Assembly (NCBI GenBank): GCA_907163375.1
Contig: CAJQUW010011280.1
Location: forward strand, 558,001-622,000
DNA: 64,000 nucleotides
Direction: 5' to 3'
DNA from: Prostheceraeus crozeri
Lineage: Eukaryota; Platyhelminthes; Polycladida; Euryleptidae
In this document: piece after piece, positions 3,195-20,320 of the stretch
Position numbering within the stretch: the stretch's first letter is position 1
How the letters are laid out: each line of letters begins with the position of its first letter
Notes under the pieces: model-generated
Told to the model about the DNA's origin: nothing
What the model saw: the letters and a program-made list of their open reading frames with translations, nothing else
The model's database searches: none
Translations under genes and position numbers: made by a program

Positions 3195-4045
3195 ATAATC
3201 CTGAACTGAAATGAGAGCTGTGGTGAGAAAGGGGATAATAAAGAGCACAAGATTGTGAAAAAATCTGGGAGAATATTAGAAAAGGAAGAAGTACGCTACA
3301 AAATTGAACACTAAGTTTCTCCCCGGAAAATGAATAAAACCATATATATTTTCCGATCGGAAACTGTGTGTAGGGGAAAGTGAATACCATAACACCGGCC
3401 CAACCGACCTTTTTAGGCCGGCTTCTTTTGATCCTGTGTACAGAGCTGTTATTATTTTTGAAGAAACTGTTATCATCATGTGTACATACAGGTGAACATA
3501 GCAGTCGGATGAATTTTGCATTTTCTGATTGTTGTAATGAGCACATGCACTTTCAGAGTGTCCTATAGGTTGTAGACCTTTATTTGTAGATGATTCCGAC
3601 ATGCGTGAATAGTGGTTGCAAATTGAATGCGAATATAGTGATATCCAATCAGTCAATCACAACAACGATTTCATGAAGACGAATGCGTTATCGAATACAG
3701 CAACCGAGAAAATTTGATAACCGTGAGTTATATTGGTCAGTCCACGTGATACATCACTTTCGTCATACATGCAACTTCTTCGGTTGAACTTCTCTTCCAA
3801 TAAAACTGAATCTGATTCATGAGATAGTTTTTGCTGATAATATCGCAAAGAAGATATCCATCATCTTGCACAGCCTCACATATTGCATTGGGGGTAGCAG
3901 CATGGACCGCGGAAGTGGGGGGGGGCAGGGGAGGCCAGGCCGAAAAATTTGCCGGGGCCACATGTGCATTTGGCCCCCCCTCAAATTTGAGCTGTCAAAA
4001 TATTCATCTTAATGATAATTTGCAATCTAATTCTTTATTATCTAT

Positions 4046-15284: not shown

Positions 15285-15743
15285 TTCATGGAGTGACTCC
15301 CTACCTTCACACATGAAAAAAGTGGATTAAACGTAATTCAAGTGATAATCAAGTTAACCGCTCGAAACTGGCCCATCAATCCCCTGGAAAACTGGCCATC
15401 GATTCCCCCGGTCCTCAACTTCATCGAAAATTGCAATCTTCATTGTCCTTCTTCCGAAAGTGATTCATTGTCGTTCTTGAATGAGTGATCTTCTTCGGAA
15501 CATCTTCCAAAATTCTGTCGGCGATTGGTAAGATTCATGCCATCTGTCAATCCAAGTAAAGTTTGATATCTTCCTGCATCCAACAAATATTTGATAAATG
15601 AGTTATCCTACCAAAATCCTACATCATTGATCTTTGAACATCATGTTTCTATGAAATAAATGATTTTTTCTGACAATCTCGTTCTGATGGATATTTTGAA
15701 AATTTATGTATTTCAATAAAATAAATGATTTTGATAACTATGG
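15285..15743 (-). other. Upstream region of the minus-strand candidate gene
   Basis: A consensus donor GTAAGT (15284-15279) closes a possible non-coding exon here. Two short overlapping minus-strand frames are present: 15538-15440 (33 codons, acidic, CSEEDHSFKNDNESLSEEGQ) and another starting near 15443 (MKIAIFDEVEDRGNRWPVFQ). Either could be part of an earlier exon or of an upstream frame; I cannot place a promoter. Confidence 0.25.
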
Positions 15744-15766
15744 TATATATATATATATATATATAT
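15744..15766. repeat. (TA)n microsatellite at the 3' edge of the Penelope-like element
   Basis: About 23 bp of alternating T and A, matched by a second tract at 18032-18059 on the other side of the element. Confidence 0.95.
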
Positions 15767-15795
15767 TGAAAGAAAAAACAACTATGTTTCTATCA

Positions 15796-15840
15796 ACCGA
15801 ACATGTTTCGGAATGTAATGATCATTCCATCTTCAGCGGT
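15796..15840 (-). ncRNA. Hammerhead-ribozyme-like motif in the Penelope-like element
   Basis: On the minus strand (15840 to 15796) the parts come in order: stem I 5' strand ACCG; core CTGAAGA (fits CUGANGA); one extra U; stem II GGAATG / CATTCC, six perfect pairs closing a 7-base loop; core GAAA; a two-pair stem III (A-U, C-G) with a 2-base loop; cleavage-site base U; and stem I 3' strand CGGT, which pairs fully with ACCG. All conserved core bases are present. Departures from the ideal are the unpaired U after CUGAAGA, U rather than C at the cleavage site, and the very short stem III, which is usual for Penelope-element hammerheads and is thought to favour dimeric action. Confidence 0.7.
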
Positions 15841-15970
15841 ACAGGAATCCGATAAAACAACAGAAGTAAGCTTATATACAGATCAGCGTAAAATGCAAGA
15901 ACCGATATCCATCAAATATGACGTGTAAAACTATGATGCTATGTGCAGGCGAAAAATGACGTCATGAAAA

Positions 15971-17917
15971 TCACAAATTCAAGTGCAAGGGCACTGAGCC
16001 ATTCCTTTCATTAGATAGCAAATCGATATTTTCTTTCAGAAGAATAGACTCCAAGATAAGAGGATAGGCTGATGCACCGATAATAGAGAAATTTTCAGCT
16101 TTAGGATGGTGCTCATGTAAAGAGATTTCAGTGGCTACGGGATAGGCTTTCAAATGCTCGCTGATTCGAGTGGCTAAGGGGCGCTTGGTTGCACCAATGT
16201 ATCGCATTGGACAGCGATTACAAGTATACAAATATGTAACATTCGATTTCAAGCCAAACGAAATGCGATCTTTGTTATTGAAATGGTTCAAAACTTTATT
16301 GGTTTTGAAAGCCAAGTAAATTTTCACATTCAGCAATTTCTCATTCAACTCGTTTATGCGTCTTTTAAGTTGCTTATGTTTGCTATCTATGAAAGGGATG
16401 GACCAGTACACCTTATCCACTTCAGTAGTGGTTGAGGCATTTTGCGAATTTTCAAACTTGGTTACCACATTTCTTTTTATTTTGTCTATAAATTGCGAAT
16501 CATAGCCGTTTTTCAGAAACATTGATTTGATGCGTTCACACGCTATTCTGAAATTCTCTCTATTGGAGCAAATTCTGTATGCTCTCGGAAATAGGGAACG
16601 CATAGCAGCGATTTTATAAGTAGAGGGAGAACATGAAGAGGCAGGTATGTAGATACCTGTATTGGTTTCTTTAATGTGATGGCCAATATCAAATGCACCA
16701 TCAAAAATGCTGACAACAGTGTCAAGAAATATGAGACTCTCATTCTGGCCTAATTCCATCGTAAATTTTAAATTTTCCTCAACCGAATTGAGGAACTCGA
16801 AAAAATGCTTACAATCCTTTTCAGTGCGAAAGATCGCAAAGCAGTCATCTACATATCTAGTGTAGAAAAGGGGAAGATGAGTAAGTTCTGAAAAACGGCT
16901 TTCTACAAGATTCATGGCAAACGCAGCCATGGTGGGAGCCAGCTTCGAGCCCATTGGCATGCCATCAATTTGGTAAAACAGTTTCTCATTAAAAGAGAAT
17001 AAAATGTTAGTACATGCTATTTCTAATAAACTTTTCAAAGCTGGTTTGGAGATAGAACAGTGCTCAAAATCAATTAACGACAAAATGTGATCAATCGTCT
17101 TGTTGACAGGAATCGACGTAAAGAGATTCGATACATCAAAGCTAACTAATTTGCAATTTTTCAAATCCGGAATATTGAGATGCTTTAACTTTTCAACAAA
17201 CAGAAAAGTATCAGTAACACTATATTGCCTAGGGATGAAGGGCTTCAGCAAATTATCCAACCAACCCGACAAATTGGAGAGATAAGAATTTCTCATATTT
17301 AGAATGGGACGATACGGAGGATTGTTGATATTTTTGTGGACTTTCGGGAGTCCGTACAACCTCGCGGGTCGAGAACCAACAGATTTGAGTTTATCAATGA
17401 TATCATTGTTTAAAAGCTTCTTTGACTTCAAACTTTGGAGCTTGCGATTAAATCTGTCCTCTTCAAGAATGAACGGATCTTTTTTCGAACGTTTATCATA
17501 CTTGTAGGGATTGAATTTGGAATTGTCTTCTAAAATTCTATCAATCTTTTCGACGTAAGAAGAGCGATCTTCAATGAAAACGCCATTACTTTTGCCAAAG
17601 CGACAGACAACAATCGTTTTATTTTGAACTAGCTTACGTAGAGATTTGAAATGTTTGGACCATTTCATCGAAAACGTTTGTTTCGAGAAGTAATTTTTGA
17701 AAATGCCTCTGAATTTACAGATGAAATCATCATCAAAGGAAACATGCCTTTTGATTCTATGAATAAGACTTTCAGCCTCCGCTTTCTGAATATTCATGTT
17801 GAATTTTTGTTGGGGCAGTGACATCGATATCCCAAGAGAAAGAAGTTCTTCTTCTTCCTTCGACAGCCTATAGGAAGAAACATTGACTATAGAAGTCACA
17901 TTCTTCGTCGATTCCAT
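15971..17917 (-). CDS. Penelope-like reverse transcriptase with C-terminal GIY-YIG endonuclease, 648 residues
   Basis: It would copy the element's RNA into DNA at a nick made by its endonuclease domain. Residues 1-180 are a PLE-type N-terminal region (LSLGISMSLP near 26-35). LPKVHK at 190-195 and RPILN at 203-207 begin the reverse transcriptase; motif A is SFDVSNLFTSIP (259-270, first Asp 261); motif B is GMPMGSKLAPTMA (319-331); motif C is YVDD (355-358, Asp 357 and 358), and FLDT follows (397-400). The thumb-like region has KIAAMRSLFPRAYRICS (435-451). The GIY-YIG domain is at about 560-630: TYLYTC (561-566) and RYIGATKRPLATRISEH (572-588), with Glu 623 as the probable catalytic acid; CNRC (566-569) and LHEHH (600-604) may bind zinc. 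There are no stops or shifts. The ATG at 17917 is the first in the frame; length suits the family. Minor alternative: the true start may be slightly different. RT fold and family are clear. Confidence 0.93.
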   Translation of the reverse strand: MESTKNVTSIVNVSSYRLSKEEEELLSLGISMSLPQQKFNMNIQKAEAESLIHRIKRHVSFDDDFICKFRGIFKNYFSKQTFSMKWSKHFKSLRKLVQNKTIVVCRFGKSNGVFIEDRSSYVEKIDRILEDNSKFNPYKYDKRSKKDPFILEEDRFNRKLQSLKSKKLLNNDIIDKLKSVGSRPARLYGLPKVHKNINNPPYRPILNMRNSYLSNLSGWLDNLLKPFIPRQYSVTDTFLFVEKLKHLNIPDLKNCKLVSFDVSNLFTSIPVNKTIDHILSLIDFEHCSISKPALKSLLEIACTNILFSFNEKLFYQIDGMPMGSKLAPTMAAFAMNLVESRFSELTHLPLFYTRYVDDCFAIFRTEKDCKHFFEFLNSVEENLKFTMELGQNESLIFLDTVVSIFDGAFDIGHHIKETNTGIYIPASSCSPSTYKIAAMRSLFPRAYRICSNRENFRIACERIKSMFLKNGYDSQFIDKIKRNVVTKFENSQNASTTTEVDKVYWSIPFIDSKHKQLKRRINELNEKLLNVKIYLAFKTNKVLNHFNNKDRISFGLKSNVTYLYTCNRCPMRYIGATKRPLATRISEHLKAYPVATEISLHEHHPKAENFSIIGASAYPLILESILLKENIDLLSNERNGSVPLHLNL

Positions 17918-18023
17918 TTTAGTAGGGGTTTGCTGATTTTTTTAAACTACTCAACTTCTTGGCATGAATTTTCGAAATACGACTTTTGACTTTGATCAAC
18001 GTATGGTCAATAATTGATTGAGC

Positions 18024-18031
<8 letters not shown>

Positions 18032-18059
<28 letters not shown>
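18032..18059. repeat. (TA)n microsatellite at the 5' edge of the Penelope-like element
   Basis: About 28 bp of alternating T and A. With 15744-15766 it brackets the element, as if insertion occurred in a TA tract that was then present on both sides. Confidence 0.95.
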
Positions 18060-18063
<4 letters not shown>

Positions 18064-20320
18064 GAGTAAGTAGAAAGAGTGTCGACTCAAAAAAGTGTCT
18101 GTATACAGTGAAAACTTTTATATGAAAAGATTCAGTTTTTTGCGGAGATAGCGTTCTTGCGGTCCAAAAAAATATTTGAGCAGTTTTTAAAAACTTAAAA
18201 TTTTGCAAATTTGTATACTACCGAGATGAAGCTCCTTTATAAGTAGTATGAAGCAAGTTGGATATCAAAAGGAATAAAATTCTGCTAACAAATTAAGCTG
18301 ATTGTCAAAAGAAATTCATGAGCTGCATTATAATGCAAATCTTCATAAAATTTCAAGTTTGTAATTCGATTTCCATTGGTATAATTACTTTTACGATTCA
18401 CTCAAATCTAAATAGTATTGCGGACACATTTTCATATTTTCAGTTAATTGTGATCGCATTGTCAGAAGTTATTTTATTTTGCTCTTCCAATGGCAGTTAG
18501 TCATAGCTTGTATGATCACGCTCAAGAAAGTGCTCTAATTGATAAGGTCATGTATTAAAGTGATAGTAACCCATCGGATTGCTAATTTAACAAATTATAT
18601 TACCTCTCCACACAGGTTGACATGACACGGAGAATTTGTAAAATGCTATTATTCCTGCTGTTTTGCTATCACGAGCAGTCAAATGTGATAACTCCAAAAG
18701 TGCAAAAATTTGCATATTTCACATGTGTTGCTGGTTCTCATTCGAGTTCATTAAATAAAATCAAAACTGTATACAAAAGGGGATTCAATTATTGGCGATG
18801 CTACTCTACCTAATGTACTCGTACTTACTCTATGATCCGAGATCGCAAATTTCTTATCACATATCCAAGAGACAGCTCATCATTTCAACTGGGAACGAAC
18901 CAAAAGTTTGAATACATCTCAAAATCGCCATAGACGGCTGTTCATAGCAGCATGGTGTTCTAACAATAATTCCATCTATCGCCATATTGATCTTGATAAT
19001 TCTATGTTCACCTTCGTCAACAGTTAGTGTAATTAGGATAGCCACATTTTTAATTTCTTTTATCAGCACATAAGGTACACAGGACTATAATAGCATAGTT
19101 TCCTCATTTTCATAGAAACTTCAATATAATGTTTTGAAATCCCTCTATCACCTTGTTGCCTGATGACGTATTGCGAAAAAAAAATCATTGAGAAAAATAT
19201 TTCCATTTTCTCTACTTTTTCACATGAATCTTTTTAAAAGTGCATATAGTTAATCCTTTTTCTCTTTAGCGTTGACTGATTAAATAATATTGACGATCAT
19301 GCTCGTTCAGTTTACTAAGTCACACTCCCGCCTCCTTGAATCAGTTGTTCTGAATTTGTAATATGTGGTGAATGATGATTGATCGTGTCTCTAATTTCAT
19401 TTTCAAAACTAAGGCTATTACCCTCGTCCTTCTGAAGTTGTAAGACAGATTTTAAAAGAGTTGACGAATCAGTCATTGTAGCAGCTTTTGGTGTATCATT
19501 AGTCTGTTTTAATCGCGCATTAAAATCAGTTACTATCATAAGAACAATTATTGAGCATTCGAGTGTCAGCAGTGTTGTAAAGGAGCCGTTAGTCGGGGTT
19601 TGTACAGAGAGGTCTTATGTTGTTGTCTTCTCACTGCACCTTAGACACGCCCAATACAACGAGGTTTCTCTAAATAAATACTTACTGCCTCCTACTAGAA
19701 TTCCCGCATAAAGATGATTGTCTTGGCAGGCAATAATTAAGATTCGTTATGATATCATTTTCTGCCATTTTCCGGGTCTAATATTTCCTTGCTTGTCTGC
19801 GTACAGACACATATCCAGTTACGTGCATCTAATTGTAGAGGCTAAGGAAAGGATAAACAGCATTTTCATCCATGAAGACTGTCCCGTTAGTGAAGAACAT
19901 TTGATCTGATAATAAACACTATCATTCACAATATGATGGTGCAAGTACCGGTAGAAAACTATTCAAATTCATATACAGAGAAATGACTTTAACGAGTATA
20001 AAGCCACCTAAATAATCGCACAAAGATATTTTAGAACGATATTAGTAAATCAATGCAATGTGACATGAAAACAGGGACTATTATTGCATTCTTTGTTAAC
20101 AATGAAAACTAAGCTAGGTAAAACAGGCTAGATAACTCTACTAAAGTAGCCTACTATAATCATTACATTGATGTTTTATGGTGGTGCTAATTTGAATTTC
20201 ATTGTGGAATCATAGAATTACTGTCGATGCATTTTCTGAATAAACTGTGTTGTCGAAAGTCATAACCTAAGCATCAATATTGATGTAACTTGCAAATAGG
20301 CCCACTAATGACTCATTGAG
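18060..20320. other. AT-rich stretch, no supported gene
   Basis: No convincing exon, repeat or RNA. Short frames are chance level. Confidence 0.4.

Follow-up and report, generated by a model that had tools for sequence, protein, structure and literature searches.

The element located at positions 15767–18031 of the window (the whole 64-kb stretch of Prostheceraeus crozeri DNA that was analysed) appears to be a truncated, non-autonomous copy of a young and probably active family of Penelope-like elements (PLEs), and this family appears to insert by priming on both sides of the target from one RNA. We assign to this reading as a whole a probability of about 0.7. The element is Penelope-like, as the initial annotation had proposed; its basic kind is already known, and the family member is new.

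Structure of the copy in the window

The minus strand of the window contains an uninterrupted open reading frame of 648 aa (15971–17917), while the second-longest frame of the 64-kb window has 181 aa. Both the frame and the catalytic residues assigned to it from the letters alone were found again: the motif SFDVSNLF starts at residue 259, which gives D261, and YVDD occupies residues 355–358. The reverse transcriptase (RT) domain (protein residues 210–380; 16778–17290, minus strand) matched Pfam RVT_1 with an E value of 5.1e-13. The putative C-terminal endonuclease region (residues 560–648; 15974–16240, minus strand) has the GIY-YIG-type residues in place (YLYTC at 562, YIG at 573–575, RISEH at 584 with R584, and ESILLKE at 623 with E623), and its Pfam GIY-YIG match had an E value of 0.12, below the cut-off. 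In the 795-aa protein of a sister copy (see below) RVT_1 was recognized with E 6.4e-13 and GIY-YIG was absent from the Pfam matches listed; thus, the endonuclease assignment is based on the motif as read by eye.

Comparison with sister copies revealed a one-armed, 5'-truncated Penelope-like copy on the minus strand. Its borders had been placed correctly: 15767 and 18031 are the points where homology to the sister copies stops and (TA)n starts. The 3' end at 15767 carries no tail, and the 5' end at 18031 corresponds to position T329–T332, approximately, of the full unit. By sequence reading, the (TA)n target flanks occupy 15744–15766 on the 3' side of the element and 18032–18063 on its 5' side, with no strand assigned to either. 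It should be mentioned that an old and abundant dispersed repeat (window 18070–18820; 11,901 first-look candidates, the matches listed being mostly 76–91% identical) adjoins the (TA)n that received the window copy, and that locus L044 is flanked by a similar repeat edge. Another segment, 15384–15667, is 66% identical to a repeat seen with near-identical scores in many contigs. In a search for the empty site, the 5' flank of the window copy proved to be a dispersed repeat, and its 3'-side flank gave no second full-length match in the assembly, that is, no second allele; nor did the flank of the young locus L012.

The full unit, as seen in the tandem array L010, is 2594 nt long (T1–T2594) and consists of 331 nt missing from the window copy followed by the shared part. 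The missing 331 nt hold 109 codons, which were read in the tandem sister copies. The frame of the full unit starts at T4 and has 795 codons; it was whole in two of the seven full units read (L010a and L011), and the 648-aa frame represents residues 148–795 of the L010a protein (630/648 identical). Contrary to what had been supposed, the window copy therefore is not intact: it is devoid of about T1–T328 (~330 nt) and of the upstream pLTR, with (TA)n directly upstream. Nor is it free of shifts, since the A-run upstream of the first ATG (17937–17943, minus strand) has seven A in the window copy versus six in the other 15 copies of the 16-copy alignment, a private one-base insertion. The frame opens at an internal methionine (residue 148) because the 5' part is missing and because of this seventh A.

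The window copy is also the most diverged of the 16 copies aligned, the other 15 having been picked for similarity to it: it has 28 differences from the column majority, whereas seven copies have from one to five. Five of the 28 are common to other copies. Twenty-two fall inside the frame, seven of them synonymous and 15 not. A random substitution in the 648-aa frame was computed to be synonymous in about 24% of cases and to create a stop in 3.7%, so that only about 0.8 stops would be expected from 22 substitutions and the open frame is unremarkable for a copy of this age. The numbers are small, and the substitutions look like decay under little or no selection. A case for an intact, autonomous window copy could be made from the 648-aa frame with its motifs and from the youth of the family; given the loss of the first 109 codons and of the upstream pLTR, the private insertion before the first ATG and the divergence just described, we consider this very improbable, and the full-length sister copies led us to reject it as an intact source. 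Judged from its sequence, the window copy is 5'-truncated, non-autonomous and dead, and not a likely source of others. In a young family, a long open frame says little about whether an element is intact.

The region after the stop codon (15767–15970, minus strand) is the 3' part of a pLTR-like segment which recurs upstream of the units in tandem sister copies. It carries a hammerhead-ribozyme-like motif (15796–15840, minus strand) with the core CTGANGA...GAAA at 15836–15806. Its stems and cut site were placed by eye from the hammerhead structure; the cut is predicted between 15800 and 15799, which in the full unit is just after T2562 and 32 nt short of the tail-less end. Rfam at gathering scores gave no match in the whole window, and for the element region it gave only a chance sRNA (E 1.4). 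The minimum-energy fold of the motif region differs from a hammerhead, and 26 of 200 shuffled sequences are equally stable when folded. In L058 the right arm (position 2217) ends exactly at the predicted cut T2562, the only case among 70 outer ends of the independent two-armed loci; this may be chance or a copy of cleaved RNA.

Abundance and age of the family

A search of the assembly (2.05 Gb, 14,165 contigs) with the whole element gave 1375 first-look candidates; among the 66 matches obtained from the 40 candidates scored, 63 were at least 98% identical. The repeat (TTAGG)6 was also looked for in the assembly and is absent. The 200-base 3' end gave 659 first-look candidates and at least 42 matches. 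These copy numbers are lower bounds. Copies L009 and L010b show zero substitutions between them. By these identities the family is young, given also that two copies retain the full 795-aa protein, and it is probably still active. The proposal of recent activity is thus supported for the family, whose other copies are far from being all old and diverged, and probably fails for the window copy itself, which is truncated, shifted and the most diverged of those aligned. Tandem units, which give rise to the pLTRs, were found in L010 (three units) and, as partial tandems, in L011, L012, L015, L018 and L021.

The same genome contains a second Penelope-like family, with about 65% nucleotide identity to the first where the two can be aligned. 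It is young too, with 39 of the 42 matches listed reaching at least 98% identity to the query, and it likewise shows a hammerhead-like core and copies arranged in head-to-head pairs and in tandem runs. In L026, the (TA)n located at the 3' end of a copy of this second family (699–2464) contains a copy of the first. Relatives in viral contigs or plasmids were looked for and none was confirmed; a match to a PDB entry (a DARPin) was dismissed as chance.

Organization of the head-to-head pairs

In total, 42 loci (20 + 16 + 6) were fetched for the analysis of pairs, and 36 of them are two-armed, with the arms head-to-head and the 3' ends outward. This proportion is biased and does not represent a frequency, as the first 36 loci were picked from the matches partly for having two listed arms; among six loci picked as one-ended matches (from 11 such matches not otherwise fetched) three were two-armed. 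Two of the pairs, L039 and L041, lie on two contigs and share one junction (T2178, a 13-nt filler, T899), being haplotypes or a duplicated segment, so the number of independent two-armed loci is 35. The remaining six loci are the tandem array L010, which has no inverted partner, the one-armed L022, L053, L055 and L056, and L052, the layout of which is unclear. The window copy is one-armed as well.

The 3' end of an arm either stops at T2594 or runs 30–35 nt further, forming a tail. Exactly one arm was tailed in 31 of the 35 independent two-armed loci (P = 1.7e-6 for at least 31 at a chance of 0.5 per locus). The query copy is tail-less, so tails were not selected for. Neither arm was tailed in three loci (L019, L020 and L058) and both were in one (L037). 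The latter has inverted ends (1–391 versus 3352–3744; 391 nt) that are 99.5% identical including the flanks, and is an artefact or an inverted duplication. In the second family, L060, the sole pair read at both ends, has one tail, and L061 is tailed at the one end seen.

The lengths of the arms and their junctions were tabulated for 29 of the 31 independent one-tail loci, leaving aside the compound L018 and L054; the pairs with no tail or two tails (L019, L020, L058 and L037) were not part of this set. Arm coordinates for this table and for the target and inner-end tests were entered by hand, and the compound arms of L014, L016, L024 and L045 were simplified. The lengths of the two arms show no correlation (rho -0.07), and in 22 of the 29 pairs one arm exceeds the other by more than 200 nt; the tail is on the longer arm in 11 pairs. 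A symmetric minority exists as well: in six pairs (L027, L040, L042, L043, L046 and L050), each with one tail, the arms are equal within 40 nt, versus 0.8 such pairs expected. L060 of the second family is nearly symmetric as well. The inner junctions of the 29 pairs show an overlap in 15 cases, are flush in four and contain a filler of 2–26 nt in ten; among the fillers printed only that of L048 is TA-rich. The junction of L046 is a perfect palindrome.

The two arms of a locus carry the same variants. Alleles agreed within loci in 120 of 122 informative comparisons, versus 0.64 by random pairing (37 loci, with L037, L052, L039 and L041 all included). Moreover, 39 variants private to one locus were common to both of its arms, in 18 of 35 loci, where chance alone would give 0.04 (gaps were treated as variants, and private means among the fetched loci; L037 and L052 excluded, L039 and L041 both included). 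Variants private to a single arm numbered 108, of which L021 contributed 25 and L054 16; in view of these numbers the arms of these two loci may have different histories.

An analysis of 64 inner ends revealed seven in T2219–2247, inside the coding part (P 8e-6 under a uniform model, the limits having been set after the ends were seen). One arm ends at T1926–T1929 in three independent loci (L011, L015 and L023), a possible stop of reverse transcription. The 5' end of the window copy is near the inner ends of L014, L016 and L020 (T305–T331). As for the targets, 31 of the 35 loci used here (with L039 and L041, without L037) have (TA)4 or longer no more than 40 nt away from each of their outer ends, against a background of 72 in 12,312 40-mers of the window.

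Model of insertion and its relation to known systems

We infer that the pairs arise by simultaneous priming on the two sides of the target, from one RNA per event, followed by a joining step. In such an insertion, an RNP would open both strands of a (TA)n tract, and each target 3' end would serve as a primer for reverse transcription, both copying the same RNA or RNAs that stem from one source copy. One of the two would start at T32, leaving the tail, and the other at T0, without a tail. The two cDNAs would then be extended in each other's direction, end independently or where the RNA's 5' end is reached, and be joined via a short microhomology or filler. The product would be a single-tailed pair of arms in head-to-head arrangement, their 3' ends facing outward. 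As to the window copy, only the tail-less arm would have been made or kept, and its 5' end (about T329–T332) would have been joined straight to (TA)n. Two-sided priming would explain the head-to-head layout, the single tail, the unequal arms, the shared variants and the short junctions together. The three tail-less pairs, the two-tailed one and several one-armed copies are exceptions to this picture.

In the twin priming of LINE-1, a single RNA is likewise copied from both target 3' ends, which yields inverted pieces, and the second primer lands internally. In the family studied here, by contrast, both arms begin at the 3' start sites of the element.

For rotifer Penelope elements, head-to-head repeats have been ascribed to self-priming on an antisense RNA: by folding back, the template would supply its own primer, and the resulting inverted repeat would have a palindrome at its junction (PMC3846280). 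Such a process would likewise provide a template common to both arms, and it fits the symmetric minority, which is above chance, the perfect palindrome of L046 and the near-symmetry of L060. Because of these cases a minority of pairs, e.g., L046, could be self-primed. As the general mechanism we regard self-priming as unlikely: in 22 of 29 pairs the arms differ too much in length, and one tail per pair does not seem to follow from the model alone, even the six near-symmetric pairs being one-tailed.

Still less probable is that the pairs result from two successive insertions, the second copy landing beside the first in the opposite direction. Both arms do end in (TA)n, a favoured target; we rejected this possibility on account of the locus-private variants common to both arms, of the fillers, which do not exceed 26 nt in the 29 tabulated pairs and are TA-rich only in L048 among those printed, and of the head-to-head orientation in the two-armed loci. 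We would give equally little credit to a fold-back artefact of sequencing or assembly. The inverted ends of L037, nearly identical together with their flanks, are what it would produce; the other two-armed loci have differing flanks, unequal arms and one tail, and an artefact was rejected as the general cause.

According to the sections of PMC11167929 considered here, a purified PLE protein acts on both strands in vitro, cleaving as well as extending them, and reverse transcription starts at two adjacent internal RNA sites which bound the tail. As the strands are reported not to differ in start site in vitro, these data do not explain a strict one-tail rule, and the present model in turn does not account for the lack of a strand difference. 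The element concerned, Poseidon/PAc of Anolis carolinensis, resembles the present family in combining an RT with a C-terminal GIY-YIG region, putative in the family studied here, in its tandem units with pLTRs, in a hammerhead motif (here hammerhead-like) near the pLTR/ORF start, in the tail bounded by two RT start sites and in its AT-rich targets. The two differ in that the sections considered make no mention of head-to-head pairs, while in the present family, which targets (TA)n, pairs as a rule carry a single tail.

The Penelope families of the rotifer Adineta vaga, as far as they are described in the excerpts of PMC3846280 used here, are similar in the size of the ORF (830–842 aa there, 795 aa here), in the pLTRs, in the head-to-head inverted repeats, in a 31-bp tail that is optional at one of the inverted pLTRs, and in simple AT-rich targets. 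They are distinguished by low copy number, junction palindromes and the self-priming model, as opposed to the many young copies with mostly unequal arms reported here. The head-to-head layout, the tail and the AT-rich targets, the last reported for PLEs in both papers, were thus already known. The fact of a single tail was known in part, and its count is, to us, new: the one-tail count with a shared template was not found in searches of open-licence papers.

It can be hypothesized that PLEs in general insert asymmetrically, with one RNP and one RNA, both target strands being primed, the first of them at the tail site and the second at the tail-less site; we hold the odds of this generalization to be about even. 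The excerpts of PMC3846280 state that more experiments are needed to discriminate between the models of insertion. In a young family of which dozens of pairs can be read, the insertion mechanism of PLEs can be tested from sequence, as two-sided priming and self-priming are told apart by where the arms end, by the tails and by the variants that both arms carry; for this the sister copies matter more than the window copy itself. If the asymmetric mechanism is true, inverted pLTRs, head-to-head pairs and the single tail would all arise in one step, and antisense self-priming would be needless for most copies.
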